60,629 nucleotides of DNA from Planctomycetota bacterium (lineage in GTDB: Bacteria > Planctomycetota > UBA8742 > UBA2392), in assembly GCA_020848275.1 (NCBI GenBank), contig JADLAK010000011.1, positions 1 through 60,629 of the forward strand, read 5' to 3'. Each line of letters starts with the position of its first letter. Within the stretch, counting starts at the first letter, position 1. Made by a program: the position numbers and the translations under genes. A model generated the notes under the pieces. The model was not told the origin of the DNA and ran no database searches. It worked only from the letters and a program-made list of their open reading frames with translations. Positions 3,194 to 58,922 of this stretch are shown in pieces.

Positions 3194-3276
3194 TTTGACC
3201 ACAGATGGACACAGATAACAAAGGATACAGCAACGGAGAACATATCCGTTGGTATCCATCTTTATCTGTGGTCAAA
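3194..3276. repeat. Degenerate-repeat hairpin, period about 11
   Basis: The left arm (3194-3237) begins TTTGACCACAGATGGACAC and the right arm (3245-3276) ends TATCTGTGGTCAAAA; they are imperfect reverse complements. Each arm is a run of drifting copies of a CACAGAT-type unit about 11 bases long. An outer, GC-richer shell (about 3165-3305, GCGGAGACGCGGCGGCG-like on the left and CCCCGCGACTCGGCG on the right) encloses it. It fills the gap between two leftward genes. Confidence 0.85.
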
Positions 3277-3310
3277 AGTAGTTGCTGCTGTATTCCCCGC
3301 GACTCGGCGT

Positions 3311-4981
3311 TTACTTTTTCAAACCGTCTTCGGCGCGAAGGCGCTTGCGGTCGATTTTATCGCGGTCGTTTCGGGGCAGCACATCGGCGCGGAACTCGAC
3401 CCAGCGCGGCGCCTTGTAGCGCACCAGTTTTGTTTTGCAGTGGTCGATCAGCGCGTCCGAGAGCTTCGCGTCGGCCTTGTGCCCCGCGTTCGTCACCACG
3501 ATCGCCAGCGGCTTGGTCAAACCGGCTTCGTCGTTGCGGCCGATCACGCAGCATTCCTTCACCGCCGCGTGCTGCATCAGGCAGTTTTCGACCTCGAGCG
3601 GGCTGACGAAAATCCCGCCCACCTTGAGCAGATCGTCGCCGCGGCCCTCGTACCACCAGTAGCCGTCGTCGTCGCAGCGGAATTTGTCGCCGCTGACGAC
3701 CCAGCCGCCACGCAGGTGTTCCTTCGATTTCGCGTAGGCGGCGTGGTAGTGCGTCGCCACACTGTCGCCGGAAATCCAGAGCGTGCCGATCTCGCCGGGG
3801 CCTACGACTTTGCCGTCGTCGTCGAGCAATTTCGCTTCGTAGCCCGCAACCAGCTTGCCGAGCGAGCCGGGGCGGATGTCGGCTTTGCCCCACGCGCCCG
3901 CGGGCCGGTTCGAAATGTAGATGTGGAAGGTTTCGGCGCTGCCGATGCCGTCGATGATCGGCACGCCAAAGGCCTTGTCCCAGCGCTCGTGCAGGTCGCG
4001 TGGCAGCGCTTCGCCTGCGCTCCACATGAAGCGCACGGTGCGCAGCGCTTCCATCCGTGCGTGCGGCCATTGGAGGATGTTGTTGATCAGCGTCGGCACG
4101 CTGGTGAACACCGTGACGCGCTCGCGTTCGATCAGCGGCAGCAGGACTTCGGGTAAGGGTCGATCTTTGAACAGCACCGTGGTCGCGCCGACGGCGAACG
4201 GGAACATCAGGTTGGTGCCCGTCGCGTAGCCGAAAAACAGCCGCGGTCCCGCGATAGTAATGTCGTTCTCGCGCATGCCGATGAAACGCTTGGCATAGAC
4301 TTCGGTGTTGAAGGCAAAGTGCGCGTGTGTGTGCACCGCGCCTTTGCTTTGGCCGGTGCTGCCGCTGGTGAACAGCCAGACGGCGGGATCGTCCTTGCTC
4401 GTCGGCCACGGCTTGAAGTCGTCGTCCGGTTCCTCCAGCCAGTTGGAATAGGTCTGGTGGCTGTCGGGCTCGTGCGTTTGCAATGGTGGCGCGACATCGA
4501 TTTCAAAGTGCACCGTGCGCGGTGTTTTCAGGCGTTCGCGGCCGACAACGATCACGTCGTCAGTGAAGCGCCCGCTGCCGCAATAACGGGTGGATTTAAT
4601 GGCCTTGTCGAATTCGGCGAGCGAGGCTTCGTCGATAAACGCAAACTGCGGCTTCACGTAATTGAGGTAGTACTCGTAATCGGCGGCGGGCAGCAGCGGG
4701 TTGATCTGCGTCGCGACGCCGCCTGCCTTGATCGCGCCGAACCATGCGTAGACGAACTCGGGCCGGTCCTGCATGCACAGCAGCACGCGCTGCTCGGGCT
4801 GCAGGCCGTTTTCGATCAGAGTGTAGGCGACGCGGTTGACGTTGCGCGCAACTTCGTCGTAGGTGATGGACTTGCCTTCGAAGCGGATGGCGACCTTGCC
4901 GCCGCGACCCAAGGATATGTTGCTGTCGACGAAGTACTCCGCCATGTTGAAGCGGTCGGGGAACGTTGGAAGGTCGGACAT
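3311..4981 (-). CDS. Benzoate-CoA ligase family protein (AMP-forming)
   Basis: This 556-residue protein is an ANL-superfamily acyl-CoA synthetase that would activate an aromatic or related carboxylate to its CoA thioester via an acyl-adenylate. The phosphate-binding loop reads LFTSGSTGQSKGAVHTH at about residues 204-220. GSLGKLVAGYEAKLLDDDG and WYEGRGDDLLKVGGIFVSP match the benzoate-CoA ligase subgroup closely. The C-terminal catalytic lysine sits in NDRDKIDRKRL. The next gene downstream in transcription is upstream-lying here: the hotdog thioesterase at 5120-5584 precedes it, with a hairpin repeat between. The exact substrate is unknown; benzoate or hydroxybenzoate is inference from subgroup. 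Confidence 0.85.
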   Translation of the reverse strand: MSDLPTFPDRFNMAEYFVDSNISLGRGGKVAIRFEGKSITYDEVARNVNRVAYTLIENGLQPEQRVLLCMQDRPEFVYAWFGAIKAGGVATQINPLLPAADYEYYLNYVKPQFAFIDEASLAEFDKAIKSTRYCGSGRFTDDVIVVGRERLKTPRTVHFEIDVAPPLQTHEPDSHQTYSNWLEEPDDDFKPWPTSKDDPAVWLFTSGSTGQSKGAVHTHAHFAFNTEVYAKRFIGMRENDITIAGPRLFFGYATGTNLMFPFAVGATTVLFKDRPLPEVLLPLIERERVTVFTSVPTLINNILQWPHARMEALRTVRFMWSAGEALPRDLHERWDKAFGVPIIDGIGSAETFHIYISNRPAGAWGKADIRPGSLGKLVAGYEAKLLDDDGKVVGPGEIGTLWISGDSVATHYHAAYAKSKEHLRGGWVVSGDKFRCDDDGYWWYEGRGDDLLKVGGIFVSPLEVENCLMQHAAVKECCVIGRNDEAGLTKPLAIVVTNAGHKADAKLSDALIDHCKTKLVRYKAPRWVEFRADVLPRNDRDKIDRKRLRAEDGLKK

Positions 4982-4993
4982 TTCTTAAAAACC

Positions 4994-5082
4994 TTTTTGA
5001 CCACAGATAAAACCGGATAAAGACGGATGTGACAGCGTTTTGCTTTATCAGTTTTTATCTGTGTCCATCTTTGGTTGAAAAG
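4994..5082. repeat. Degenerate-repeat hairpin, period about 11
   Basis: Left arm (4994-5022) starts TTTTTGACCACAGATAAAAC; right arm (5043-5082) contains TTTATCTGTGTCCATCTTTG. The arms are imperfect reverse complements and share the CCACAGAT core with the element at 3194-3276. The following bases 5090-5115 carry another arm-like run (TCTCCGTGTCTCTGCGGTG) without a clear partner. It lies between the thioesterase and CoA-ligase genes. Confidence 0.8.
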
Positions 5083-5119
5083 CAGTTGCCGTTCTCCGTG
5101 TCTCTGCGGTGAAAGTCCT

Positions 5120-5584
5120 CTAGCCCTTCACCGGCTTGTAAAAACCTGTGCGGTGGCTGTCGGGCACGAGGAAGCGGGTGAACATCTCGCGGTATTTAAT
5201 CGGCACGTCGCGCGATTCAAAGCTGTCCATGTCCAGGCACACGGTCACGAGTTTGGCCTGCACCGCACGCACGGCTTTGTTCTCGCGGCTGGTCGTTCCG
5301 GTGTACATCCAGGTGACGGATTTGACGCCGATTTTGTCCACGCCCAGCGCGATCTCGACTTTATCGCCAAAGCGCAGCGGGCTCAGGTAATCGACTTCCA
5401 TGTGGACGGTCGGGAAACCTACGCGCTCGACGTCGAGCAGGTGGTTGTAGGGAATGCCCAGCCCGCGCTCGAAGAAGTCCTCAAAGCAGCAATGGAAGTA
5501 ATGCAAAAATCGCGGGTAATAGAGGATGCCCGCGTGGTCCACGTCGGAGAAGCGAATCGGGTAAGTAGCAGAGAATAGCGGCAT
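5120..5584 (-). CDS. Acyl-CoA thioesterase, 4HBT/YbgC hotdog family
   Basis: This 154-residue single-domain hotdog protein probably hydrolyses an acyl- or aroyl-CoA. The N-terminus reads YPIRFSDVDHAGILYYPRFL, where the Asp before HAGI (residue 17 region) is the catalytic acid of the 4-hydroxybenzoyl-CoA thioesterase family. It is transcribed toward the benzoate-type CoA ligase at 3311-4981, which suggests a shared substrate class; this is inference from neighbourhood. Length is typical. The stop of the previous gene (cytochrome c) lies 76 bases upstream inside a repeat hairpin. Confidence 0.85.
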   Translation of the reverse strand: MPLFSATYPIRFSDVDHAGILYYPRFLHYFHCCFEDFFERGLGIPYNHLLDVERVGFPTVHMEVDYLSPLRFGDKVEIALGVDKIGVKSVTWMYTGTTSRENKAVRAVQAKLVTVCLDMDSFESRDVPIKYREMFTRFLVPDSHRTGFYKPVKG

Positions 5585-5590
5585 GGTTTA

Positions 5591-5689
5591 GGGATTGGGG
5601 ACGGGGGAATAGGGACTGGGTCTGTTGCAGACCGAATAATACTAACCGACGGCCAACTCCCTACTCCCTATTCCCCATTCTCGATTCCC
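5591..5689. repeat. Degenerate-repeat hairpin, period 7
   Basis: Left arm 5591-5620 reads as heptads GGGATTG GGGACGG GGGAATA GGGACTG. Right arm 5659-5689 reads CCCTACT CCCTATT CCCCATT CTCGATT. The arms are imperfect reverse complements around a 38-base loop. The right arm overlaps the last codons and the stop (5661-5663) of the cytochrome gene, so its final residues are repeat-encoded. Confidence 0.85.
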
Positions 5690-6902
5690 ACTTGTTGAGC
5701 GATCTCACATATGCCGCCAGCGCCCACAAGTCGGCGCTGTTGCGCCCGTCAGCCTCAAGATAGCCCGCCATGCCGATGCCGAGCCCAAGCGAGAGCGTCG
5801 CATATACGCCCTCAAACGTGCCGCGGCGCAGGCGATCTCTAACCAGGTCGCGCGGGGGAAAACCCAGCCGCTTGGTGGTTTCGGCGGCCAGCGGGCCGTT
5901 GCCGCCGCCGTCGGCGCCGTGGCAGGTCGCACAGGCGTACTTTTCGCCATCGTTGAACAGAACGTGCCCGCGCGCGATGAGATCCGCCGTTACTTGCGGC
6001 GGCGTGACCTCAATCGGCCCGTGCTCGAAAGCGTCGGCGTAGCCCTCGTAGGTGACGCGGTTGAGTTCGGCGATGTAGGCCACCAGGTCGGAGCGTTGGG
6101 CGTCGCTCAGCGTGCGCGCGAAGCTGGGCATGCCGCTGCCGGGCAGGCCGTTGGTGATCGTTGAGTAGATATCGTCGAGGGACGGCAGCGGCGCGCGCAG
6201 CGTGCGCCAGACCATCTTCGCGCCGCCAATGTCCGCGGGCGGTTTGTCTCCTGCCTGCTTGAACCATTTCGCTGCGGGTCCGTCGCCGCGCGCCTCGGGC
6301 CCGTGGCAGCCCGCGCAGAATTCGGCGAACAGCTTCTGGCCCGCGACAATGCTGCCGGGCCGCGGCAACTTGTGCTCGCCGCGCGGCCAAGTTGCACGCT
6401 CGCGGCCGGGAACGTCAAGACTTTGCAGAAACCTCAACAGCAAGCGATTGGGAACAATCGTTTTGATTTGCATCGCAATGATCGCATTGAACGATGGCTG
6501 TTGTTCCGGCATCTGGGAGTGTGCGACGACGTCTTGCGGCCGCCAGAGGTGCGCGAGATGCCAGCCGTTGGAGTAGAGGCCGCCGATGCCCGCAAGGTCA
6601 GGCCCCAGCGGCCGCGCGCCCGCCGCTGGTGCGCCGAACGCCGCCGTCATTTCCCTTTCGAGCGTCGACACGGAGTGGCAGCGCCAGCAACCGGAGTCGA
6701 CGTAGGCCTGCGCGAGTTCGCGGTCAAAGTGCTGGCGCTCAGGTGGGGGAGTATCAGGTGCCGGATCAGGTTTGGGTAGCGCAGCGCCGGCGATGCCCGC
6801 TACGACAGCGAGGAGAAGGAGGCTGATCGCAATGACGACGCGTGGGCGCACGAGCAGCATCCTACCAATCACGCGCATCTGCCGCCCCGTTGGGGCTTGC
6901 AT
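5661..6902 (-). CDS. Membrane-anchored tri-haem cytochrome c, CcoO-like plus two cytochrome c domains
   Basis: Three CxxCH haem sites are visible at about residues 72 (CWRCH), 196 (CAGCH) and 324 (CATCH). An N-terminal membrane anchor (VVIAISLLLLAVVAGIAGA) places the haem domains in the periplasm. The first domain resembles CcoO/FixO of cbb3 oxidase: a GPDLAGIGGLYSNGWHLAHL segment and VVAHSQMPE supply the distal Met region. The second and third are ordinary CcoP-like domains. No oxidase catalytic subunit lies in the window, so the partner is unknown; electron transfer is the safe call. The chosen start is the first ATG; a TTG at 6923 and an ATG at 6878 preceded by GGGG are alternatives. The last residues fall inside a repeat hairpin. 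Confidence 0.8.
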   Translation of the reverse strand: MQAPTGRQMRVIGRMLLVRPRVVIAISLLLLAVVAGIAGAALPKPDPAPDTPPPERQHFDRELAQAYVDSGCWRCHSVSTLEREMTAAFGAPAAGARPLGPDLAGIGGLYSNGWHLAHLWRPQDVVAHSQMPEQQPSFNAIIAMQIKTIVPNRLLLRFLQSLDVPGRERATWPRGEHKLPRPGSIVAGQKLFAEFCAGCHGPEARGDGPAAKWFKQAGDKPPADIGGAKMVWRTLRAPLPSLDDIYSTITNGLPGSGMPSFARTLSDAQRSDLVAYIAELNRVTYEGYADAFEHGPIEVTPPQVTADLIARGHVLFNDGEKYACATCHGADGGGNGPLAAETTKRLGFPPRDLVRDRLRRGTFEGVYATLSLGLGIGMAGYLEADGRNSADLWALAAYVRSLNKWESRMGNRE

Positions 6903-6996
6903 GGACGTTAACGCCAAACTCAAGCCTCACGGCTTGGGCTCAATTCTGACGGCTCGTTGGGCCTGAACGGCGCACACAGAACGAAGACCGAGCCGC

Positions 6997-7064
6997 AAAA
7001 ACAAGTCGCCGGGCCAAAGCCCGGCGACGGCAGGCCCTCCTGAAAACCGCAATGCGGTTTTCAG
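6997..7064 (-). terminator. Double hairpin with U-tract after the 7095-8435 gene
   Basis: On the minus strand, a first near-perfect hairpin (7040-7064, arms CTGAAAACC and GGTTTTCAG) is followed by a perfect 10-bp stem (7005-7014 with 7019-7028, GTCGCCGGGC/GCCCGGCGAC, 4-base loop). Next comes TTGTTTTTG. The second hairpin plus U-tract is a good intrinsic terminator for the leftward TPR gene pair. Confidence 0.8.
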
Positions 7065-7094
7065 GCACGCTCTCTTCGGTCGCCCCGCCCCACA

Positions 7095-8435
7095 TTACTT
7101 CGGGGCTTTGGGCTTGTCGGTCTGGCGGAAGCGGTCCTTGCTGTTCATGTACTCGATCAGCCGCGTGGCGATCGCGCCGTTGCCGCGATCCTTGCCGTCG
7201 AGCTCGATGACCTTGTTGTAGATATCGCGCGCCTTGCCGTTGCCCTGTACCTGGTAACACTTGCCCATGTTGATCATGAACGAGGTGTTCTGCGGGCATT
7301 TCTCGAGAATCTTCTCGTAAAACTCGATGGCTCGCTTGGCGCCCTCTTCGTTCATGCAACTGTTACTGTCGCTGGACTCGCGCGCGTAGTCGAACCACGA
7401 GCCGGCGACATTCTGCAACAGGCGGATATCTTCGGGGTCGATCTTGAGCAGCAGCTCAAGGATCTGGGCGCGTTTCTTCCAGTCGTCGGACTCCTGGCTG
7501 CTGGTGAACGCCTGGGCTTTTTCATAGTTGTTGCGGATGATCTGGAAGTCCGCGTCGATGGACTTTGACATTTCGTCGAGCAGCGTGACGGTCTTGGCAT
7601 CCTTGCACAGGTCCGTGGCCTGGTAGGTGCGCTTGAATTCCTTGATGTCCCACTGGACCATCAACAGCAGCTTGCGCGGCTGGCGGCGGCGTTTGGCCGG
7701 GTCCTTGTCGTAGTCGCCTCGGTTGAGCCGGATTTCATCGAGCTTCTTCTTGGCCGCCGACTCGCGTTCGGTGATCAGTTTCAGCTTGTCGTCGGCGGTC
7801 ACCAGCACCACGCGCTCAAGCTGGAACTCGCTGTCCCATTCGTTGAATATCTCAAGCTGCCCGGGCTTGGCCTTGAGCTTCTCCTTCTCAATGATGTAGC
7901 CCTCGATCAGCGGGCGCAGGTCCTTGTTGCGCTGGTGGATGATCGTCAACACGCGGTTGGCCAGCCGCGGCTGGCTGATGCTGTAAAGCCAGATCGCCAC
8001 GGCGGACACGTCAACGTCGTCGGTGCTGGTGCGCACCGGGTAGATATCGATCATGTGCTGCGGCGGCCAGTGCTTGAACGTGAACTCGACGCCGTCTTTG
8101 CTCACGCGGTAAACCGTTTTACCGCTGTCATCCTGGTTGTCGGCGACCAACTGGTAGGCGCGAAACCCGTTCTTGGTGATGTCGCGGATTTCGCAGGGCT
8201 TGACGCCCTTGTCCTTGCCCGGGAATTCGATGTAGGTCTTGGGAAACTGGTTGGTCTCGACCAGGCCCTTGATATAGGCGGGCAGCTTCTTCTCGAACCA
8301 TTCCTTGGCGACGTCCGCCTCTTTTTTGCCGGGGTGAAGTTTGCCCGGCAGCGTGTCGTCGGCAGGGGCGGCGTAAAGGCCGCCGCAAGCCAGCGAAATC
8401 AGCAATCCAGCCACGGTCCATTTGATAAGCGCCAT
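7095..8435 (-). CDS. Secreted TPR-like protein of unknown function (paralogue A)
   Basis: I do not recognise this 446-residue protein. It has a clear signal peptide (ALIKWTVAGLLISLACGG, cleaved near Ala-Ala-Pro) and would be exported. The middle is rich in charged helices (about 200-270 has a basic Lys/Arg-rich stretch). The C-terminal 110 residues look like degenerate TPR helices (KRAIEFYEKILEKCPQNTSFM, GKARDIYNKVIELDGKDRG). Two Cys pairs (KPCEIRD, DLCKDAK) may form disulfides. An AGGAGA ribosome-binding site stands 4-5 bases before the ATG. It lies 42 bases after a related gene with the same signal-middle-TPR plan, and the two are followed by a terminator. Confidence 0.7.
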   Translation of the reverse strand: MALIKWTVAGLLISLACGGLYAAPADDTLPGKLHPGKKEADVAKEWFEKKLPAYIKGLVETNQFPKTYIEFPGKDKGVKPCEIRDITKNGFRAYQLVADNQDDSGKTVYRVSKDGVEFTFKHWPPQHMIDIYPVRTSTDDVDVSAVAIWLYSISQPRLANRVLTIIHQRNKDLRPLIEGYIIEKEKLKAKPGQLEIFNEWDSEFQLERVVLVTADDKLKLITERESAAKKKLDEIRLNRGDYDKDPAKRRRQPRKLLLMVQWDIKEFKRTYQATDLCKDAKTVTLLDEMSKSIDADFQIIRNNYEKAQAFTSSQESDDWKKRAQILELLLKIDPEDIRLLQNVAGSWFDYARESSDSNSCMNEEGAKRAIEFYEKILEKCPQNTSFMINMGKCYQVQGNGKARDIYNKVIELDGKDRGNGAIATRLIEYMNSKDRFRQTDKPKAPK

Positions 8436-8477
8436 ATCAGTCTCCTGAACCTTCTACGAATAGCACGCGCGGCGGCG

Positions 8478-9746: not shown

Positions 9747-9894
9747 GAAATACGCTCCGTTGGCCGGTAGTTCTCCCCGTGGCGATTCTAAGTGAGGACA
9801 GGCACGAACTCCAGCTTGCGGGCGGGTTTTAGACGCCGGGCTGCCAAAAAAGACGCGGCGGCTCTGGATGTTCTGTTCATCCTGCGAACTAACC

Positions 9895-9931
9895 AAAAAA
9901 AGACGCGGCGGCCCGATTAAAGGCCGCCGCG
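9895..9931 (-). terminator. Intrinsic terminator of rpsA
   Basis: A perfect 10-bp GC stem (9904-9913 CGCGGCGGCC with 9922-9931) closes an 8-base loop and, on the minus strand, is followed by a run of seven U (9895-9901). It lies 20 bases after the rpsA stop. The U-run and left arm are copied as CCAAAAAAGACGCGGCGGC at 9844-9862 without the right arm. Confidence 0.9.
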
Positions 9932-9950
9932 CGGTGATTATTGAGCCAGA

Positions 9951-13888: not shown

Positions 13889-13975
13889 GGGAACGGCCAG
13901 GGATTAGGGATTGGGGAATAGAAAAACTCCTGTGCCGGGAGGTTTTACCTAATCCCCACTCCCAAATCCCGGTTC
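13889..13975. repeat. Degenerate-repeat hairpin, period 7
   Basis: Left arm (13889-13921) reads GGGATTA GGGATTG GGGAATA after a short GGAACGG lead. Right arm (13948-13975) reads CCTAATC CCCACTC CCAAATC and ends GGTTCC-like. The core arms agree at 19 of 22 positions when one is reverse-complemented. It lies between divergent crcB and PHP genes. Its motif resembles the element at 5591-5689. Confidence 0.85.
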
Positions 13976-22636: not shown

Positions 22637-24046
<1,410 letters not shown>

Positions 24047-24114
24047 TTTTCAGCACGAATTTCGCGAGTAGACGCGAGCGATCGTTTTTATTCGTGGGTA
24101 TTCGTGGCTAAAAG
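24047..24114. repeat. Degenerate-repeat hairpin, period 10-11
   Basis: The left arm (24047-24084) starts TTTTCAGCACGAATTTCGCG immediately after the eno stop. The right arm (24085-24114) ends TATTCGTGGCTAAAAG and is its imperfect reverse complement. The right arm encodes the last residues (ATNTHE) and the TAA of the convergent gene at 24088. It probably serves as terminator for both genes. Confidence 0.8.
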
Positions 24115-24470: not shown

Positions 24471-24553
24471 GCCGACGATAACGGATAGACGCCGATACGC
24501 AAAAACGCCGACGGGCATGATCCGTCGGCGTTCATCCGCATTGATCGGCGGCA
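24471..24553 (-). terminator. Nested repeat hairpin and terminator after the STN-domain gene
   Basis: An inner 11-bp stem (24504-24514 AACGCCGACGG with 24522-24532) is followed on the minus strand by TTTTTG, a good intrinsic terminator. An outer imperfect shell (CCGCCGACGATAACGGATAG on the left, TTCATCCGCATTGATCGGCGG on the right) is made of drifting CGCCGAT/CGGATA units about 11-12 bases long, like the other hairpin repeats. Confidence 0.8.
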
Positions 24554-25312: not shown

Positions 25313-25440
25313 AAGCATAAAGCTAAAGGCTAAAAGCTAAAAATTGCCGACCGTGACAGGACGATTAAGAGTTGCCATCGCTGTGAAGCCCGTCTGCGGC
25401 CCCAACTCAAATTTCAGTCTTTAGCTTTTAGCCTGCTTTT
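25313..25440. repeat. Degenerate-repeat hairpin, period 7
   Basis: Left arm 25313-25344 reads AAGCATA AAGCTAA AGGCTAA AAGCTAA; right arm 25410-25440 contains CTTTAGC TTTTAGC CTGCTTT. The arms are reverse complements separated by about 65 bases, longer than in the other elements. It lies between the divergent STN-domain and small secreted protein genes. Confidence 0.75.
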
Positions 25441-27682: not shown

Positions 27683-27749
27683 AAGGTATCAGGTAGCGGG
27701 TGTCAGGTATCAGGTGACCCGATACCCAAGACCGGATACCTGATACCTT
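27683..27749. repeat. Degenerate-repeat hairpin, period 7
   Basis: Left arm (27683-27715) is GGTATCA GGTAGCG GGTGTCA GGTATCA GGT; right arm (27718-27749) is CCCGATA CCCAAGA CCGGATA CCTGATA CC. Both arms keep an exact 7-base period and are reverse complements with a 2-base centre. It lies between the divergent VWA and DUF2203 genes. Confidence 0.92.
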
Positions 27750-37100: not shown

Positions 37101-37117
37101 CGAGACGGATTAAAGCG

Positions 37118-37195
37118 GTTTTAGGTATCGGGTATCAGGTTTTAGGTCGCAAGCAGACGGCTTTTCCTAAAACCCAACACCTGATACCTAATACC
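37118..37195. repeat. Degenerate-repeat hairpin, period 7
   Basis: Left arm (37118-37147) is GG TTTTAGG TATCGGG TATCAGG TTTTAGG; right arm (37166-37195) is CCTAAAA CCCAACA CCTGATA CCTAATA CC. Arms are reverse complements around an 18-base loop. It lies between the divergent SLC6-like and sigma-factor genes. Confidence 0.92.
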
Positions 37196-44758: not shown

Positions 44759-44831
44759 TGTCTCGTGGTTCGTATTTCGTGGTTCGTGTTTCGGGTCGAA
44801 CAACCAACCACGAACAACGAACCACCTCGTG
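44759..44831. repeat. Degenerate-repeat hairpin, period 7
   Basis: Left arm (44759-44798) reads GTGGTTC GTATTTC GTGGTTC GTGTTTC; right arm (44801-44831) reads CCAACCA CGAACAA CGAACCA CCTCGTG. Arms are reverse complements. It lies in the divergent asnS / VWA intergenic region and therefore overlaps the promoters or leaders of both genes. Confidence 0.9.
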
Positions 44832-47381: not shown

Positions 47382-47451
47382 GGTTTTAGGTTCTAGGTTT
47401 TAGGTGTTAGGGAAATGCTTTCCCAAAACCTGGCACCTGGAAACTATAACC
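47382..47451. repeat. Degenerate-repeat hairpin, period 7
   Basis: Left arm (47382-47414) reads GGTTTTA GGTTCTA GGTTTTA GGTGTTA GGG; right arm (47419-47451) reads CAAAACC TGGCACC TGGAAAC TATAACC. Arms are imperfect reverse complements with a 4-base centre. It lies between the VWA and pdxA genes on the same strand and replaces a normal ribosome-binding site for pdxA. Confidence 0.9.
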
Positions 47452-47460
47452 TGTCCCACC

Positions 47461-48540: not shown

Positions 48541-48688
48541 CCACGGAAAACACGGAAGGCACGGAGAACGGCAACTACGTAATCCACAGATTACGCAGAT
48601 TGACGCAGGTGTTTTGTCTATGGGTATCTGCACTATCTGTGGATTGCTTTGTCTTCGCCTTTTTCCGTGTCCTCCGTGTTTTCCGTGG
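48541..48688. repeat. Nested degenerate-repeat hairpins, period 9
   Basis: Outer arms 48541-48571 (CACGGAAAA CACGGAAGG CACGGAGAA) and 48659-48688 (TTTCCGTG TCCTCCGTG TTTTCCGTG) are reverse complements. Inside, a second pair 48581-48609 (CCACAGATT ACGCAGATT GACGCAGG) and 48625-48645 (TATCTGCAC TATCTGTGG) forms an inner hairpin. A further arm-like run (TTGCGTATTCGCGCCTTCGCG, partly) at 48707-48730 lacks a partner nearby. It lies between convergent pdxA and DinB genes. Confidence 0.9.
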
Positions 48689-49262: not shown

Positions 49263-49322
49263 TCTCGCGGAGCACGCGGAGCGCTTCAAGCAGATTTGTC
49301 GCTCTGCGAATTCTGCGAGAGC
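49263..49322. repeat. Degenerate-repeat hairpin, period about 9
   Basis: Left arm (49263-49291) TCTCGCGGAGCACGCGGAGC and right arm (49298-49322) GTCGCTCTGCGAATTCTGCG are imperfect reverse complements (16 of 21 core positions). It lies in the 216-base divergent gap between DinB and thiC. I found no TPP riboswitch in this gap. Confidence 0.7.
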
Positions 49323-51110: not shown

Positions 51111-51111
51111 C

Positions 51112-51327: not shown

Positions 51328-51405
51328 CCAAGGCCCATCGAGCCGACAAAACTGAGCCCACGCCGTCTTCGTTTTGCCACGAACCAATCTCCCCGGGGTG
51401 ACAGA

Positions 51406-52452: not shown

Positions 52453-52621
52453 CGGTTCATGCTCTCGCTTGGGCCAAAGGGCGTCAAGCGCGAACGAAAA
52501 CTGGAGCGACGCAAGATCGCCCGAAAATGCGCTGCGGTTAGGAAATCGCTGCCACACAAAACAACACCCCCTGCTTCCAACTTGGCGCTTTGCGCTACGT
52601 CGGACTAGTACGCAGGGGGCT

Positions 52622-52685
52622 CTGGTTCACGGTTCTGTGGTTGTTACCGATAACCGACCGCTGATAACTGACAACCGATTACCGC
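52622..52685. repeat. Degenerate-repeat hairpin, period 7
   Basis: The left part (52622-52648) holds TGGTTCA CGGTTCT GTGGTTG-like units and the right part (52647-52685) CCGATAA CCGACCG CTGATAA CTGACAA CCGATTA CCG. The heptads are clear; the arm pairing is weaker than elsewhere. The stop of the gene at 52679 lies in the last unit. A CCCCCTGC/GCAGGGGG stem with a 37-base loop (52567-52619) sits just upstream. Confidence 0.7.
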
Positions 52686-53086
52686 CATTCCCACTCTTTG
52701 CCCTTGCTGCTGCCGTCGGCCTCGACTTCGTACTCGAACACGACGGGCACCTTGCTGAGCTGGGCCCACTTCGGCGACTTGCTCTGGTAATAGCAATTGC
52801 CGCGATAAGAAACCCGGCCCTTGTCCTTGAACTGGCCCAGGCCGTCGGCCGTAAACGTCGCGTGCGCGCTGCCGTCTTCCGACATCACCACGCCGACCGC
52901 CGTCCCGCACAGCGTGCCGTCTTCGCGCAGTTCGTTGGTGTAGGTCAGGAACGAGCGATAGGGCACGCCAAGCAACTTGCCCTGTCCTTCGGCCGACACT
53001 TCAACCAGCGTCGTGCCATTTTCATCGCGATACACGCGGCGCCCGATTGTCTTGCCCGTTTCTTCCATGATCTGTTCACCCAACAT
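52679..53086 (-). CDS. Unknown 135-residue beta-rich protein
   Basis: Start set at ATG 53086. The protein has no signal peptide and is rich in alternating strands and glycine: GKTIGRRVYRDENGTTLVEV, GKLLGVPYRSFLTYTNELRE, GTLCGTAVGVVMSEDGSA and KDKGRVSYRGNCYYQS. This looks like a small beta-barrel of the allene-oxide-cyclase or lipocalin-like kind, and the closing FEYEVEADGSSKGKEWEW recalls a group of hypothetical bacterial proteins. I cannot name the family with confidence. It is followed by a repeat hairpin that contains its stop codon. Confidence 0.65.
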   Translation of the reverse strand: MLGEQIMEETGKTIGRRVYRDENGTTLVEVSAEGQGKLLGVPYRSFLTYTNELREDGTLCGTAVGVVMSEDGSAHATFTADGLGQFKDKGRVSYRGNCYYQSKSPKWAQLSKVPVVFEYEVEADGSSKGKEWEWR

Positions 53087-53292
53087 GCGATGTCTCCTTG
53101 CTGGTGTTTGGGCAAAGGCGCCGCCGGGCACCCGGCGCGCCGCCTTCGCAGGAAGAATCGATTTGCACCGCCGCACGCACGCGGTCAAGCTAAGGTTTGT
53201 TGAAACCACGTGGTTAGTTCAAGTGGCTCGCAAACCGCTTCCAGAGCGGGTTTGCGTGCGAAGATCGCGTTAATTTTCTGACAGTCCTGGAC

Positions 53293-53658
53293 CTATTTGA
53301 CGCTTGCGCGCTTACGCTTGGGGCTCTGTTTCTTCGCCGGCAGCGTCACGACGAAATCCAGCGTCCACTTCACCCACTTCTTCAGGTCGGCGTCACTCGC
53401 GTGGCCCTTCGGCTCGACAAAGACGTAGCCCAGCATCGGCTTGCCCGTGAAATCCATGACGCGCGCGCCGGGTTCTTCCAGCGCGCCCTCGTGCGTCTGC
53501 GGTCCCACGCGCGCCATTAGTTCGTCCTTCAACACGCCGAGAAACATGCGGCCGTCGTGCAAAAACGCGACGCCGCCGAACATCTTCTTCTCGGTCACGC
53601 TCTTGTTCTTGCCGATGGCTTTGCGAATACGCTCCGCCAGTTTTTCGTCGTAAGCCAT
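53293..53658 (-). CDS. TfoX N-terminal domain protein
   Basis: The 121-residue protein is a TfoX/Sxy N-terminal domain: AERIRKAIGKNKSVTEKKMF, then GGVAFLHDGRMFLGVLKDEL, and a C-terminal part DFTGKPMLGYVFVEPKGHAS that fits the family. TfoX is a regulator of competence in gammaproteobacteria, but stand-alone N-domains are widespread with unknown role, possibly nucleic-acid binding. The C-terminus adds a basic KKQSPKRKRASVK tail. The 206-base gap upstream (53087-53292) holds no gene I can support. Confidence 0.85.
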   Translation of the reverse strand: MAYDEKLAERIRKAIGKNKSVTEKKMFGGVAFLHDGRMFLGVLKDELMARVGPQTHEGALEEPGARVMDFTGKPMLGYVFVEPKGHASDADLKKWVKWTLDFVVTLPAKKQSPKRKRASVK

Positions 53659-53799
53659 GGCCGCAATCTAGGTATGGCGGTTTGCCGCGCCAGCGGTAAA
53701 AAAGCGATCAGCCCCGGTCGGAAGGTGGGGGGAAGTTTCAATATCGCTCGTCTGTTCCCATTTCCCCCGCCCTTGCGGACGGGGCTGAAAAGGACACAC

Positions 53800-54309
53800 A
53801 TGGCCGCAAAAAAAGCGCCGAAGAAAACAGCCGCGAAAAAAGCCGCGCCTAAAAAGGCCGCCGCAGGGACAAGCGGCAGCGTGTCCGCGAAAACCAACAA
53901 GCCTTCAATCAAGAAACCCAAGATCAGGCCGCCGCAAGCGATTGTCGTCGACAAGTTCGCGCCGACTTTCCCCGTGGCTGACGTCGAGAAAGCGCTCAAG
54001 TGGTATAAGGAAGTTCTCGGCTTCAACGTCGCCTTCAGGCAGGCCGATCCCACGGGCGCGATTGTTTACGGCGGCGTCACGCGCGGCGCGGCACGGCTTC
54101 ACCTTGCACAAATGTTTCCCGACGGGCCGCTAAAGAAATCAGCGGCGTACCTGTTCATGAAATCCGGCGTCGACGAACTTGCGGCGCAGGTCTACGCGCG
54201 CGGCGGCAACATCATCGTGCCGCTCAAGGACCATCCCTACGGCCTGCGCGAATGCACCGTCGAGGACCCCGACGGCAATCACATCTACGTCGGACAACCC
54301 GTCGAGTAG
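53800..54309 (+). CDS. VOC/glyoxalase-family protein with histone H1-like basic tail
   Basis: Start set at ATG 53800. Residues 1-46 are an Ala/Lys/Pro-rich tail (AAKKAPKKTAAKKAAPKKAA) like bacterial histone H1-like proteins. Residues about 50-169 are one vicinal-oxygen-chelate module: FAPTFPVADVEKALKWYKEV, LGFNVAFRQADPTG, then SAAYLFMKSGVDELAAQVYA and a closing GLRECTVEDPDGNHIYVGQP with the usual acidic metal ligand. Members include dioxygenases, isomerases and resistance proteins; none can be picked. A basic DNA-binding-like tail on a VOC domain is unusual. Confidence 0.8.
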   Translation: MAAKKAPKKTAAKKAAPKKAAAGTSGSVSAKTNKPSIKKPKIRPPQAIVVDKFAPTFPVADVEKALKWYKEVLGFNVAFRQADPTGAIVYGGVTRGAARLHLAQMFPDGPLKKSAAYLFMKSGVDELAAQVYARGGNIIVPLKDHPYGLRECTVEDPDGNHIYVGQPVE

Positions 54310-54310
54310 C

Positions 54311-54372
54311 GCAGGTCGCAAATGGCAGGTTGCAGGTCGCAACATCACACGACCTGCGACCCGCGACCTGCC
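54311..54372. repeat. Degenerate-repeat hairpin, period 7
   Basis: Left arm (54311-54341) is GGTCGCA AATGGCA GGTTGCA GGTCGCA; right arm (54351-54372) is CCTGCGA CCCGCGA CCTGCC. Arms are reverse complements around a 9-base centre. It begins one base after the VOC gene stop and lies upstream of icd. Confidence 0.92.
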
Positions 54373-54446
54373 AAACCCCACCACTTGTGTATCGACGGGC
54401 GCCAATCCATATTCATCGCCCTGATAACCGACCTTCAGAGGAATAC

Positions 54447-55886
54447 ATGGCACGCACAGTAACCCTCATTCCCGGCGACGGCATTGGCCCGGAATGCACC
54501 GACGCAACCAAGAAAATCATCGAAGCCTCAGGCGTGAAGATCGACTGGGAAGTCCGCCACGCCGGCGAAAGCGTTTTCAAACAGGGCGTCGCCAGCGGCG
54601 TGCCCAAGGAAACGATGGACAGCATCAAGAAGACCCGCCTCGTGCTCAAGGGCCCGCTCGGCACGCCGATTGGCTACGGCGAAAAGAGCGCCAACGTTAC
54701 GCTACGCAAGCTGTATGAAACCTACGCAAATATCCGGCCCGTGCGCGAGTTCCCGGGTGTGACCACGCCGTACTCCGGCCGCGGCATAGACCTGGTGATC
54801 GTGCGCGAAAACGTCGAGGACCTCTACGCGGGCATCGAATACATGCAGACTCCGGGTGTGGCCGAGACGCTGAAACTCATCAGCCGCAAGGGCAGCGAAA
54901 AAATCGTGCGCATGGCCTTTGAATTCGCACGCAGCGAGGGCCGCAAGAAGGTCTCGGTCGCGACGAAGTCGAACATCATGAAGTTCAGCGAAGGCATGAT
55001 GAAGCGCACGCTCGAGGACATCGCCAAGGAATACCCGGACATCCAGAGCGAGCACATCATCGTCGACAACTGCGCCCACCAGTTGGTGAAGAAGCCGGAG
55101 CAGTTCGACGTGATCTGCATGACGAACATGAACGGCGACATCCTCAGCGACTTGAGCAGCGCGCTGGTTGGCGGCCTGGGCTTTGCGCCGAGCGCGAATC
55201 TGGGCAACGAAGTCGCAATCTTCGAGGCCGTGCACGGCAGCGCGCCGAAGTACGCCGGCAAAAACACCATCAACCCGACGGCGGTGCTGCTCAGCGGCGT
55301 GGCGATGTTGCGCTACATGGGCGAGTTCGAGGCCGCGAGCAAGATCGAGAACGCGGTCATGGTCACGCTCGAAAGCGGCTGCATCACCCGCGACATTCTT
55401 GGCGACGCCAAGGGCATTCCGACCACGAAGTACGCCGAGACTGTCATTTCCAACCTCGGCAAGAAGAGCGCGAAGTGGAAGGTGCGCGACTACAAGCCGA
55501 TCAAGATGCCGAACGTGAAGCTGGACCAGGCCTTTGTGGTGGCCAAGACGCGCAAGACCATCGGCGTGGACGTGTTCATCGAAAGCGCCGCGGCGCCGGA
55601 GTTGATCGGCAAAAGCGTCGAGAAACTGGTCGAGGGCTCGCCGCTGCAACTCAAGATGATTGATTCGCGCGGCACGAAGGTTTATCCGCCCACGGGCGCG
55701 ATCACCGACAACACCGATGCCTTCCGTTGCCGCCTGTTCATGCGCGATGCGGCGGGCGAAATGTCCGACGCGCAGTGCTTTGACGTGATTGCGCGCATCG
55801 CCAAAGAGCACAAGTGGACGCACATCGAGAAGCTGCACGAGTTCGACGGCAAGCCGAGCTTCACCAAGGCCCAGGGCGAAGACTAG
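54447..55886 (+). CDS. icd: Isocitrate dehydrogenase, Thermus/rickettsia-type
   Basis: The 479-residue enzyme is a beta-decarboxylating dehydrogenase that makes 2-oxoglutarate in the TCA cycle. Motifs: VTLIPGDGIGPECTDATKKI, the substrate segment YANIRPVREFPGV and IVRENVEDLYAGIEY (with Arg and Tyr), DNCAHQLVKKPEQFDVICMT, NMNGDILSDLSSALVGGLGF (metal Asp) and HGSAPKYAGKNTINPTA (cofactor loop). The C-terminal 140 residues (about 340-479) are an extra domain seen in the Thermus and rickettsial type, not in E. coli Icd. Coenzyme preference is not resolved. A repeat hairpin with U-tract ends the gene. Confidence 0.92.
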   Translation: MARTVTLIPGDGIGPECTDATKKIIEASGVKIDWEVRHAGESVFKQGVASGVPKETMDSIKKTRLVLKGPLGTPIGYGEKSANVTLRKLYETYANIRPVREFPGVTTPYSGRGIDLVIVRENVEDLYAGIEYMQTPGVAETLKLISRKGSEKIVRMAFEFARSEGRKKVSVATKSNIMKFSEGMMKRTLEDIAKEYPDIQSEHIIVDNCAHQLVKKPEQFDVICMTNMNGDILSDLSSALVGGLGFAPSANLGNEVAIFEAVHGSAPKYAGKNTINPTAVLLSGVAMLRYMGEFEAASKIENAVMVTLESGCITRDILGDAKGIPTTKYAETVISNLGKKSAKWKVRDYKPIKMPNVKLDQAFVVAKTRKTIGVDVFIESAAAPELIGKSVEKLVEGSPLQLKMIDSRGTKVYPPTGAITDNTDAFRCRLFMRDAAGEMSDAQCFDVIARIAKEHKWTHIEKLHEFDGKPSFTKAQGED

Positions 55887-55892
55887 CGAAGT

Positions 55893-55927
55893 GATTGCGG
55901 ATTGCGGATTTTGAATTGCGGATTGAA
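55893..55927. repeat. Single-arm heptad repeat GATTGCG
   Basis: Five copies of a 7-base unit (GATTGCG GATTGCG GATTTTG AATTGCG GATTGAA) begin a few bases after the icd stop. No reverse-complement arm was found nearby. It has the same period as the hairpin elements and looks like a half element. Confidence 0.85.
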
Positions 55928-55939
55928 GGCTTGCAACAC

Positions 55940-56007
55940 ACACGGATGGACAGGATATTCAGGATGGAAGCCATCTTGTTCATCTTGTTCATCCGTGTAA
56001 TTTTTTT
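55940..56007 (+). terminator. Repeat hairpin with U-tract after icd, period 9
   Basis: Left arm (55940-55967) reads GGATGGACA GGATATTCA GGATGG after ACAC; right arm (55971-55998) reads CATCTTGTT CATCTTGTT CATCCGTGT. Reverse-complement match is 22 of 28. TTTTTTT (56001-56007) follows, so this element has the form of an intrinsic terminator. The element at 57120-57168 is the same family. Confidence 0.9.
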
Positions 56008-56074
56008 GCGGCCATGCGCTTGCTAGGGCCCGGAACCACTGCCAGAGTTGCGTCACAAATCTCAAGGAGCCCTC

Positions 56075-57106
56075 ATGCGCATCGTCGGATTGATTGTCGC
56101 GTCGCTGATCCTCTCGCTTGCGTGCTACGGCACTTATGTCGTTCAGGCAGACGCCGCACGCGGGTTGCGTGGCGCTTATCTCGGTATGCTGCAGGGCCAG
56201 ACGGTCAAGGCGCTCACGGATGTAGCGTCGGGTCAGTCGAGTTCCCTGCCTCCAAGCAAAGACCTCGAAGCTGTTGCCCGCAAAGGCCTGAAGGCTTTTG
56301 AGCAGCAAAGCTTCGACGGCTTGTTCAACTTGCTGCCGACGTGGCGCAAGGAAAAGTATGGGCTGCTGCAGGAACGCGCCAAGGCGGCGGTAGAGGACGA
56401 TAATGAAAAGGCCCGCGCGGACTTCGGCAAGCTGTACAAGAGCAAGGACCCGGGCAACATCCTCAAGCTCAAGGACAAAGATTCGTTCATGAACCTCACG
56501 CGCGCGCAGTTTTGCGCGCTGAGCACAGATTTGCTCACCATTCACATAAACGCGCATGTGATCACCGCGGCCAGCGGCCAGTGGTTCATGGTCAACGTGA
56601 CGACGGGTTGGCTCACCAAGATGCCCGACCCCAGCCAGATGACCGCGGTGATCGAAAGCGGCGCGGTGGTTACGTTCGAGAATGTCGCGGGCAACACCAT
56701 CGTTTTCACGTTTACTGTGGTTGACAACCAATGGGTGCTAACGGATTGGCACGCAAAGATCGGTGAGTTCGAGTCACGCTCAGCCGAAGATGATTACTTG
56801 AGCGCTGCCACGAACGAAGCCAAGTCATCCGAGGCGCGCGCGGCGCTGGGCACGATCAAAGATCGCCTGCGCGTGAAGTACATCCAGAACAACAACTCGG
56901 TCAACACCAAATGGACGCTCAGCGACCTGGTGAACACCGCTGAGTTGTCGGGCAAGTACTATGGCGCCGCGGACTACAGCATGACCGCGCTGGCTGAAAA
57001 CACCGCCACTTTCAAAGCCGCGGCCAATACCCAGACACGTGCGCCGCAGGTGACGATGTCGATTACAAACATCCAGACCGGCGCGGCGACACTGACCTCG
57101 CCGTAG
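56075..57106 (+). CDS. Secreted protein with pilin-like C-terminal domain
   Basis: The ATG at 56075 follows AAGGAG at a good distance. The 343-residue product has a signal or anchor helix (RIVGLIVASLILSLACYGTY). Residues about 40-235 are mixed, with a helical KAFEQQSFDGLFNLLPTWRK region and a strand-rich middle (FVTVVDNQWVLTDWHAKIGE-like). The last 100 residues (SSEARAALGTIKDRLRVKYI, SLSDL-like TLSDLVNTAELSGKYYGAAD, YSMTALAENTATFKA) follow the layout of the globular part of type IV pilins: an ARAALGTI helix end, a disulfide-free sheet and a GKYYDYS-like loop. It may belong to a pilus-like or secretion assembly; no other pilus gene is in the window. Confidence 0.6.
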   Translation: MRIVGLIVASLILSLACYGTYVVQADAARGLRGAYLGMLQGQTVKALTDVASGQSSSLPPSKDLEAVARKGLKAFEQQSFDGLFNLLPTWRKEKYGLLQERAKAAVEDDNEKARADFGKLYKSKDPGNILKLKDKDSFMNLTRAQFCALSTDLLTIHINAHVITAASGQWFMVNVTTGWLTKMPDPSQMTAVIESGAVVTFENVAGNTIVFTFTVVDNQWVLTDWHAKIGEFESRSAEDDYLSAATNEAKSSEARAALGTIKDRLRVKYIQNNNSVNTKWTLSDLVNTAELSGKYYGAADYSMTALAENTATFKAAANTQTRAPQVTMSITNIQTGAATLTSP

Positions 57107-57119
57107 CGGCCAAAACAAA

Positions 57120-57168
57120 CACGGATGGGCGGGATAAACAGGATCGCACCATCTTGTTCATCCGTGTG
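57120..57168. repeat. Degenerate-repeat hairpin, period about 9
   Basis: Left arm (57120-57144) CACGGATGGGCGGGATAAAC and right arm (57150-57168) CATCTTGTTCATCCGTGTG pair imperfectly. The consensus is shared with 55940-55998. It lies between convergent genes. Confidence 0.85.
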
Positions 57169-57177
57169 GGTTGTTAA

Positions 57178-58788
57178 TTATTCAGGCAGTTCGCGAAGCA
57201 TCCGTTTCAGCGGTTTGCCCACGTGGTTCTTCGGGATCTCATGCACCAGGTGGTAGCGCCTGGGATGTTTGAACGCCGCAAGGTGCGGCGCCACGAACTT
57301 CGGCAAATCCGCGATGTCCGGCGGCGCGCCGTGTTTGAGCACGACATAGGCGACGGGAACTTCACCGTCAACCTTGTCGGGCTTGCCGACCACGGCGCAT
57401 TCGGCAATGGCAGGGTGCGTGAGCAGCACGGTTTCAATTTCACTTGGATAGACGCTGTAGCCGCGGAATTTTATCAAGTCCTTCAGCCGATCGACGATCT
57501 TCAGGTAGCCCTCGTCGTCGAACACGCCCACGTCGCCCGTGCGCAGCCAGCCGCCATCGAGCATGACCTCTTTCGTCGCGTCGGGCTGGCTCCAGTAACC
57601 CAGCATCACCTGCGGGCCGCGCACCTGCACTTCGCCCTCTTCGCCGACGCCAACCTCGACGCCCGGCTCGTCGGCCTTGCACAGGCGAACTTCCGTGCCC
57701 GGAAGCGGGATGCCCACCGTGCCGGCCTTGGCGCGTTGCGGCGGGTTGTTGCAGACCTCGGGGCTTGCTTCCGTCAGGCCGTAGCCGTTGATCATCGGGA
57801 TTTTCGGGCAGGCCTTGGCCCAGCGTTGCGGCAGGTCGCTGCCAATCAGCATCGCGCCGGCTTTCACGTAGCGGACGCTCGCGAAAATCTTCGCCGCATC
57901 GGCGCCTGCGGCGTCAAGCAGCCGGTTGAACATTGTCCCGCTGCCGTAAACGACCGTGACCTTGTGTTTCACGATCGCGGCGAGCACTTCGTCGGGCTTG
58001 AATTGTTCAAGCAGCACAATCGACGCGCCGACGGCAAAGGCCGAGTTCATCACGCAGCACATGCCCCAGGTATGGCAGAGCGGCAGCGCGCCGAGGATCA
58101 CGTCGTTTTCCGTCCAACTGAACCAGTTGCAGTTCTGCAGCGCGTTCACAATCAGGTTGCGGTGGCTCATCATCGCGGCCTTGAGGCCGCCGGTCGTGCC
58201 GCTGGTGTATTGCAGCACCGCGACGTCGACTTCCGGGCGCGTCTTGGGCGGCGGCGGCGGCTCGATCAGCGCCTGCAGCAGGCCCGAGTCGCCCGCGCCC
58301 GGCCGATATTCCTGGCCGGGCTCGATGTACTGCGTCTTGGGTTCGCGCGTGCCCGCGGCCTGCACGGCGCTGTCGAAATCGAGCACGCGCTGGACATCGA
58401 ACACCGCAATACTTGGGTCCGTGTCGGCGATGATCTTGGTGATTTCTTCGGTCGTGAGGTGCGGGCTTGGCGTCGTGACGATCAAGCCCGCGCGCAACGC
58501 GCCGTAATAATGGGTGATGAACTCGGGGCAGTTCGGCAGCCAGATCAGCACGCGTTCCTGGTACTTCGCCGCGCCGTAGCCCTTAAAACGCATGTGGGCC
58601 GAGGCCGAGAGCGCGTGTTTCCACAGGCGTTCGTAACTGATGGTGAGTTCTTTGTAGTACAGCGCGGGGCGCTTTTCGTGGCGGCGGGCGGCGTTTTCAA
58701 GCAGCCACCACAGGGGCTTTGGTGGGATGCCGACGGCACGCCCCAAACCCTGCGGATAAAACTTCGACCACTCGAATTTGTCCGCCAC
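57178..58788 (-). CDS. Long-chain acyl-CoA synthetase (AMP-forming)
   Basis: The 536-residue ANL-superfamily enzyme activates a carboxylic acid to the acyl-CoA. The phosphate loop reads LQYTSGTTGGLKAAMMSHRN (about 200-219), then YGLTEASPEVCNN, the GWLRTGDVGVFDDEGYLKIV and DRLKDLIKFRGYSVYPSEIE segments, and a C-terminal lysine in IPKNHVGKPLKRMLRE. The pattern is closest to FadD-like and cyclohexane-carboxylate-type ligases. It stands on the minus strand directly after the thioesterase gene at 58966, in the same CoA ligase plus thioesterase pairing as at 3311-5584. Confidence 0.92.
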   Translation of the reverse strand: MADKFEWSKFYPQGLGRAVGIPPKPLWWLLENAARRHEKRPALYYKELTISYERLWKHALSASAHMRFKGYGAAKYQERVLIWLPNCPEFITHYYGALRAGLIVTTPSPHLTTEEITKIIADTDPSIAVFDVQRVLDFDSAVQAAGTREPKTQYIEPGQEYRPGAGDSGLLQALIEPPPPPKTRPEVDVAVLQYTSGTTGGLKAAMMSHRNLIVNALQNCNWFSWTENDVILGALPLCHTWGMCCVMNSAFAVGASIVLLEQFKPDEVLAAIVKHKVTVVYGSGTMFNRLLDAAGADAAKIFASVRYVKAGAMLIGSDLPQRWAKACPKIPMINGYGLTEASPEVCNNPPQRAKAGTVGIPLPGTEVRLCKADEPGVEVGVGEEGEVQVRGPQVMLGYWSQPDATKEVMLDGGWLRTGDVGVFDDEGYLKIVDRLKDLIKFRGYSVYPSEIETVLLTHPAIAECAVVGKPDKVDGEVPVAYVVLKHGAPPDIADLPKFVAPHLAAFKHPRRYHLVHEIPKNHVGKPLKRMLRELPE

Positions 58789-58814
58789 GAAAAAGTCCTT
58801 TGTATGGCAACTGC

Positions 58815-58922
58815 GTTCACGAAGCCACGAAGAGACGAAGTAACGAAGGAAAACAACGACTGGAGCAAAAAAGCCTTTGTCCGTTTTTCTTCGTGTCTTC
58901 GTCTCTTTGTTTCTTCGTGAAA
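58815..58922. repeat. Degenerate-repeat hairpin, period 8
   Basis: Left arm (58815-58852) reads ACGAAGCC ACGAAGAG ACGAAGTA ACGAAGGA; right arm (58883-58922) reads CTTCGTG TCTTCGTC TCTTTGTT TCTTCGTG with a T-rich lead. The arms are reverse complements around a 30-base loop. It lies between two leftward genes, thioesterase and CoA ligase. Confidence 0.92.

Follow-up and report, generated by a model that had tools for sequence, protein, structure and literature searches.

Some twenty hairpins lie between the genes of a 60,629-nucleotide stretch of Planctomycetota DNA (the window), which is one whole contig, JADLAK010000011.1, of a 4.41 Mb genome in 111 contigs (assembly GCA_020848275.1; G000 below). 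Their arms consist of short units repeated in tandem, and they are probably gene-less copies of small mobile elements. These would be of two types, an S23 gene going with arms of period 7 and a GxxExxY gene with arms of 8-11 nt period, and both would spread by replacing older hairpins on which they land. What makes membership in these two types likely is that S23 and GxxExxY genes lie between arms built in the same way; in addition, the unit families are dispersed, elements nest in loops and corresponding gaps of sister species differ. The gene-less hairpins would derive from gene-bearing forms, and the S23 and GxxExxY proteins would help to move the elements. Both are common small proteins, to our knowledge without known role. 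The link joins two puzzles, since the fixed arm period would mark element membership and the proteins would gain a testable job. Among the titles and abstract openings that searches of an open-licence library listed, none links heptad arms to S23 or GxxExxY genes. Heptad arrays have so far appeared in scattered reports, as G-quadruplexes, regulator sites, translation signals or strain fingerprints. Small dispersed repeats were reportedly treated by Elhai in 2008.

An earlier, sequence-only reading of the window had named a dedicated element that copies itself as one candidate origin, a proposal that gains support from the arms around S23 and GxxExxY genes; the genes were out of its sight, since the window contains none of the gene-bearing versions found. 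The longest loop in the ATTACCA family of hairpins, a set of 31 elements from genome G007 and 13 from its sister species G014 (some of them orthologous), measures 484 bases (locus L246, 8772-9340) and encodes a 154-residue S23 protein (PF05635, E 1e-13; TIGR02436, E 2e-17; family names are those of Pfam and NCBIfam). A second S23 gene lies 2 kb off at the same locus, between ATGACCA arms. A narrow profile of close relatives recovered these two L246 genes only, and a broader profile was then used. The fetched DNA contains 41 candidate pairs of facing periodic arrays spaced 200-1500 apart, and the open reading frames that they enclose include more S23 genes, two PF13366 genes, and ordinary genes standing between two separate hairpins.

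Inverted arms flank 21 of the 24 S23 (four-helix-bundle, PF05635) genes, with period 7 in 21 of 21; one more is cut by a contig end. The hosts of bracketed genes are planctomycete-group genomes and cyanobacterial, Bacteroidota and Chloroflexota plasmids. GxxExxY genes, of nuclease fold (PF13366), are bracketed in seven of eight cases by arms of the 8-11 nt type, with units GCGAAG, GCAGAG, CACGGAG, GCCAAAG, GCCAAG or CACGGGTAAA, and the arms are periodic by test in four of the seven (8, 8, 9 and 10). Among control genes of 240-620 bp, 7 of 321 were bracketed; by reading, these include three genes for tyrosine (Y1) transposases associated with repetitive extragenic palindromes (REPs), each with its own arms, and L160, L166 and L194, which lie between two separate heptad hairpins. 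Without the loci chosen through repeats, the counts are 16/18 for S23 and 5/5 for GxxExxY (Fisher p 4e-20 and 3e-8). Plasmid loci retrieved by tblastn with the S23 protein alone were bracketed in 12 of 13 cases, a sample of 13 from 22 matching plasmid records, with hosts in Nostoc, Dolichospermum, Aulosira, Euhalothece, Bernardetia and Chlorohelix; the unbracketed one is L399 of Anabaena cylindrica. Not all counts are independent, because L407 and L408 are close relatives.

The window's own genome holds two of the eight GxxExxY genes (L145, 12570-12917; L142, 17290-17640). By eye, the units ATTACCA, GTCCCGT, AGGTTTT and GGAGGCA are common to the gene-less and gene-bearing forms of G007, and in the planctomycete-group genome G004 an S23 gene (L355) lies between arms of GGGAATC, a unit already described in Xanthomonas. 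Among solved structures, XCC0516 (2gsc, five chains) comes closest to the L240 S23 protein, at E 9e-9; no solved structural relative was found for the L163 protein. Four S23 proteins run on NCBIfam also match Avd, distantly and below that family's cut-off (E 1e-8), and because S23 is distantly akin to Avd, an RNA step in mobility is possible by analogy. Two pairs of plasmids have further neighbours of note: L399 (Anabaena cylindrica) and L400 (Nostoc) each have an S23 gene with cas2 on one side and cas1 on the other, with heptad arms around it in L400 only, and in the Nostoc plasmids L405 and L406 an S23 element adjoins XisH/XisI-type genes.

Within the window, a gapped inverted-repeat score was compared at each locus with 200 dinucleotide shuffles, and the autocorrelation of each arm with 1000 arm shuffles (p < 0.01 in at least one arm). 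The inverted repeat exceeds chance (p 0.01 or less) at 16 of 20 loci, the misses being 24047 (p 0.23), 49263 (0.22), 52622 (0.58) and 57120 (0.02), and an arm is significantly periodic at 15 of 20, so that the hairpins listed by the sequence-only reading do exist. The loci without a significant period are 4994, 24047, 25847, 52622 and 57120; for 25847, whose aligned arm of 18 nt is too short for lag 7 in the shuffle test, a separate period test gave period 7 (P 0.002). The period is 7 at nine loci, 8 at 58815, 9 at 48541, 49263 and 55940, and 10 at 3194 and 24471; the periods first put at about 11 are 9-10 by this test. The intergenic location is also upheld, since by the gene calls made here no locus lies inside a gene and all 20 are between protein genes; the placement of loci between divergent genes holds for seven (13889, 22637, 25313, 27683, 37118, 44759 and 49263). 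NCBIfam names among the window's genes are enolase, GatB, PdxA, ThiC and isocitrate dehydrogenase. An Rfam search of the whole window at the gathering threshold gave no matches, and an exact 21-mer taken from the window has a single match in its own genome. The features, none with an assigned strand, are as follows.

3194-3276: hairpin of CACAGAT units, period 10 (inverted-repeat and period tests)
5002-5063: hairpin CACAGATAAAA, period not significant (inverted-repeat test)
5591-5689: hairpin of GGGANTN units, period 7 (inverted-repeat and period tests)
13900-13970: hairpin of GGGATTA units, period 7, divergent gap (tests and gene calls)
22638-22710: hairpin of CGTGYTA units, period 7, divergent gap upstream of enolase (tests and gene calls)
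24047-24113: hairpin of CACGAAT type in the gap 3' of enolase, not significant alone (p 0.23)
24471-24552: hairpin of GCCGATN units, period 10 in one arm
25313-25439: hairpin of GCTAAAA units, period 7, long loop
25847-25927: GCAGATA/TATCTGC heptad arrays, period 7
27683-27749: hairpin of AGGTATC units, period 7, divergent gap
37117-37195: hairpin of AGGTTTT/AGGTATC units, period 7, divergent gap
44765-44825: hairpin of TTCGTGG units, period 7, divergent gap
47382-47451: hairpin of AGGTTTT units, period 7
48541-48688: outer hairpin of CACGGAAR units, arms about 48541-48566 and 48660-48688 by eye
48581-48645: inner CACAGAT hairpin, nested within the loop of the outer hairpin at 48541
49263-49320: GCGGAGCAC units with period 9 in a single arm; no significant inverted repeat (p 0.22)
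52622-52684: TAACYGA-type heptads, inverted repeat not significant (p 0.58)
54323-54373: hairpin of GCAGGTY units, period 7
55940-55998: hairpin of CACGGATGGACAGGAT units, followed by a T run
57120-57175: short CACGGATG hairpin, marginal (inverted-repeat p 0.02), end approximate
58816-58921: hairpin of CACGAAGR units, period 8

The same format is abundant beyond the window. In a survey of intergenic gaps of 60-1500 bp, covering 550 kb of G000 together with G007 and G014, periodic hairpins were present in 61 of 298, 67 of 447 and 24 of 145 gaps, respectively (152 of 890 in total), as against 0 of 890 dinucleotide-shuffled gaps. By period, the 156 hairpins divide into 103 of period 7, 26 of period 10, 11 of period 8, 9 of period 9 and 7 of period 6. 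Thirteen other genomes of the family carry roughly 0 to 10 per 100 kb (from 20-80 kb each). Applied to 1.40 Mb of other genomes, made up of 80 named loci of which at least two (L082 and L092) come from the window's own phylum group, the same detector found ten, and three of the ten have period 7 (two in L059, one in L065).

The sequence-only reading had described one shared format with sequences that differ between loci, which is right only in part, although there are indeed many units; it had gone further in calling the format sequence-free, and this does not hold, since unit families recur and certain heptads occur across phyla. Within G000, 24 of the 61 gaps with periodic hairpins stand alone, while the other 37 have sequence in common with at least one further such gap: 13 form a single group and the rest eight groups of 2-5. 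Matches to the pattern ACCACRRAK-CACRRAK-CACRRAK, its units separated by 1-4 nt, occur in 75 of the phylum's 199 genomes and, among the named loci, in 5 of 48 genomes, with no matches for the reversed control in either set; its carriers outside the phylum are three Verrucomicrobia (L072, L084, L109) and two genomes labelled proteobacteria (L036, L062). The phylum member G110, with a genome of 12.3 Mb, has the highest count, 426 matches. Three copies of TCAGRAG (one mismatch) occur in 5 of 55 genomes: the Pyrinomonadaceae genome of L059 has 40 partly overlapping matches, G012 has 12, the Thermodesulfovibrionales genome of L080 has 6 (and 2 control matches), and two more have 1 each. YAACYGA has matches in 10 of 55 genomes, with a peak of 27 in G014, many of them overlapping in one array (2 control matches), and matches also in a Verrucomicrobium (L109). 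GGGANTN was rejected as a test of distribution, because its matches in 6 of 55 genomes are accompanied by 25 control matches in 5 genomes; the reversed control is itself a plausible heptad. One G007 family has 116 half-sites in that genome and none in its congener G002, with no control matches, and a register count puts 68 of the 88 arms of the best-sampled family at 42 nt.

Comparison of the same loci between close relatives, which had been proposed as a check, reveals that one periodic hairpin often stands where the sister species has another. Where they align, the G007 and G014 genomes are about 90% identical (a flank divergence of 46% obtained in the hairpin comparison is a product of forced alignment), and 86 of 129 periodic hairpins were placed in the other genome, with 42 not placed and 1 too near an end. 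Mapping from G007 gave the same unit in 27 cases, a different periodic hairpin in 12 and another outcome in 5; the corresponding numbers from G014 were 20, 14 and 8. The non-shared comparisons thus contain another periodic hairpin in 26 of 39 cases, compared to a background of 91 in 592 gaps for the two genomes, the 26 being directional rather than independent and coming by reading to about 11 distinct clean gaps, with L193, L245:8121 and L261:706 doubtful. The places of all 20 sites of one G007 family were located in G014, and by eye the family was kept at 11, replaced by another repeat-built hairpin at 6 and by none at 1, with 2 not bracketable. The gap adjacent to enolase within one genus provides a further example by eye, with GAAGTCA heptads in G007 and G014, GGGGCNT in G011, GTTGATG in G013 and none in G002. 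Elements also occur inside the loop of another, at L118, L191, L239, L261 and L262 and at 48541 in the window, and by the detector four of five further hairpins were located in the loop (6.8% expected).

Exchange at one gap, nesting in loops and the lack of target duplication fit a replacement of the IS1272 type, in which the inverted repeats of the target are replaced without target duplication (PMC5678879, in the part available). By analogy, a gene-bearing element would land on an existing hairpin, which would then be replaced or split, and gene-less copies would follow in trans. The likeness lies in inverted repeats as the replaced targets and in the absent duplication, whereas IS1272 has its own transposase gene and no transposase is tied to the elements here; the evidence for replacement here consists of different hairpins at one gap between sister species.

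The arms of an element appear to travel together. In 34 of 44 ATTACCA elements one arm starts with AACAGCG and the other with AACAGCA, which argues that the arms spread as a pair; no link between this asymmetry and gene direction was seen among 24 elements. Among 22 asymmetric short-loop elements of G007 (231 pairs), 40 pairs have an arm identity of at least 0.93, and the loop identity of these 40 is 0.19 versus 0.16 when shuffled. The loop values are 0.04 versus 0.00 in the TCAGRAG family of the L059 genome (91 pairs; a hairpin was present in 15 of 20 regions, and one was excluded for a 3-nt loop) and 0.39 versus 0.31 in the CCACGAAGG family (45 pairs). Seven orthologous ATTACCA pairs have an arm identity of 0.94 and a loop identity of 0.635 versus 0.366 shuffled, with two of the seven loops at the shuffled level, though one of these (L240) is plainly alignable. 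Since paralogous loop identity is near the shuffled level, the middle would either not be inherited with the arms or be lost fast. Homogenisation of arms by conversion is a possible alternative for this contrast; arm identity in the ATTACCA family is 0.94 for orthologous and 0.88 for paralogous pairs. Loops were also considered as remnants of GC-rich terminators, an idea rejected because their self-complementarity is not above that of shuffled loops (24 loops, p 0.44).

Several known systems resemble parts of this picture, as far as the available portions of the reports go. The Coxiella 23S rRNA intervening sequence has an S23 gene inside a stem-loop, with three tandem GACAGAT heptamers before the gene in strain-variable number, and the Xanthomonas campestris S23 protein is a homopentamer (PMC4990558). 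Such intervening sequences share with the present elements the terminal inverted repeats that form a stem, the S23 gene inside (as in 21 of 24 gene-bearing forms here, the window hairpins being gene-less), the label of selfish element and a sporadic spread (PMC4990558). They differ in being located in rRNA helices, whereas the elements here are intergenic, with heptad arrays in both arms and plentiful gene-less copies; the 20 window loci lie between protein genes, with no Rfam family in the window. Miniature inverted-repeat transposable elements are matched in defined terminal inverted repeats (AACAGC...GCTGTT and GGCAACTGC...GCAGTTGTC) and in a gene-bearing partner with the same arms (L246 8773-9338 in the ATTACCA family, others by unit), the mobilising role of the gene being putative, but not in target-site duplication, which the 44 elements lack. 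Heterogeneous heptads in facing arrays are known as GGGAATC in Xanthomonas (Xcc, 70 cases with 186 repeats; Xac, 75 cases with 183) and GGGGAYT in Nostoc, where the accessible text treats them as G-quadruplexes, with no S23 link (PMC4692102). Finally, in diversity-generating retroelements, Avd, the distant S23 relative, serves a system whose target needs a DNA hairpin (PMC3240598, from the part available).

Among the alternatives, it is unlikely that the arms form paired arrays to which regulatory or DNA-bending proteins bind, with the unit under selection. Arms diverge at 7.4% of positions and loops at 18.8%, as this explanation would have it, and the available part of a report on Geobacter metallireducens interprets tandem 7- or 8-mers, paired on opposite strands, as protein-binding "global regulator binding sites", with class 2 (TCTCCGTS) and class 3 (MTYCTGA) being reverse complements of units found here (PMC2700814). 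However, each genome holds many units, hairpins are exchanged at the same gap, the families are patchy among congeners, and two gene families are bracketed.

There is also a slim chance that the hairpins are REPINs, that is, REP-based hairpins moved by REP-associated tyrosine transposases (RAYTs). In the portions of the literature available, REPINs likewise form dispersed inverted pairs, insert into existing elements and have gene-bearing and gene-less forms, with a different foot motif, a different gene and arms without tandem units (PMC3116915, PMC3733652). Y1 genes are present in 16 of 16 genomes of the family, most in G007 (28) and G014 (24), and across 199 genomes their presence is associated with the ACCACRRAK repeat (61/14/61/63, odds 4.5). 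On the other hand, the GTAG/CGTC foot is no commoner at the hairpins (10 of 156) than at random segments (16 of 155); Y1 matches are absent from 14 of the 75 genomes that bear the repeat, one of these with 68 repeat matches; there is no dose relation where both occur (rho 0.03, Y1 counts being minimum values); in G004, 16 Y1 matches go with a lack of periodic hairpins over 80 kb; and the G007 Y1 genes at L163, L235 and L244 are bracketed by their own GC-rich arms without heptads. Copies of the hairpins do not flank RAYT genes: at 30 Y1 loci, the heptad hairpins nearby amount to one clear case, about 1.3 kb away, and three weak calls of period 6 or 9. Because of these own arms and the absence of Y1 from 14 of 75 repeat-bearing genomes, Y1 transposases are the weaker candidate for the mover. 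In genome G229 six Y1 matches all score the same, which sets them apart from single-copy RAYTs.

Retention at gene ends, as transcription terminators or as hairpins that stabilise RNA 3' ends, is a very unlikely explanation as well, even with the T run at 55940 and with tandem gaps being the richest in periodic hairpins (114 of 563). Periodic hairpins occupy 16 of 122 convergent and 22 of 205 divergent gaps, and the terminator pattern is seen in gaps whose hairpins are all non-periodic (convergent 54 of 122, tandem 135 of 563, divergent 27 of 205). Six or more T in the 10 nt beside the hairpin were found for 16 of 156, near the background of 10 of 155 random segments, and the poor fit to terminators suspected by the sequence-only reading is thereby strengthened. 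Compensation is rare among one-sided arm changes, of which 45 break a pair, 21 restore one, 8 stay unpaired and 2 compensate, few changes and thus little power. Construction in place by slippage and template switching, an earlier suggestion, is very improbable: in-register pairing (0.849 versus 0.762 with units permuted within arms, by a detector that favours the best register) and the failure to find target duplications agree with it, but it is disfavoured by arms of almost constant length, by a period that follows the enclosed gene and by identical units in several phyla.

Several observations weigh against gene-less copies of S23 and GxxExxY elements. Neither protein is a known transposase, and both may be passengers. 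No S23 gene was found within the 550 kb sampled from the window's genome, and some genes elsewhere are unbracketed (S23 at L399, the Anabaena cylindrica plasmid, at L193 11221 and at L367; GxxExxY at L236). The bracketed loci L240, L246, L334, L355, L364 and L370 came from searches that used the repeats, and only 24 of 46 hairpins of period 8-10 have two or more CACRRAK units. At exchanged gaps the entire spacer differs, with no clean empty site, and target-site duplications (k of 2-11) gave at most one match in 44 elements. Very recent copies are lacking, the closest pairs over 70 nt being 82% (G000), 88% (G007) and 80% (G014) identical.

More tentatively, and with some doubt, S23 could be an Avd-like five-fold ring that reads the heptad arms, the period of 7 being its footprint, and could drive hairpin-replacing elements in at least five phyla, with the rRNA intervening sequences as ribosomal members; the GxxExxY nuclease would drive a twin class of 8-11 nt, and both would fill intergenic DNA with swappable gene-less hairpins. 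The link between arms and genes would itself account for much non-coding DNA in several little-known phyla and for the unlike hairpins in the same gap of neighbouring species.

Other kinds of palindrome also occur in these genomes. In G007, GGGGACTGTCCCC / GGGGACAGTCCCC palindromes, a further repeat family, flank ATTACCA hairpins at L155 (16392-16640), L241 (10072-10320) and L152 (7397-7680), and another repeat type in G014 is the palindrome AAGGGACAGGCACC..GGTGCCTGTCCCTT at L119 (19762-19791). In the window, a strong hairpin without a period at 53708-53788 (score 29) is probably an ordinary terminator or other palindrome.

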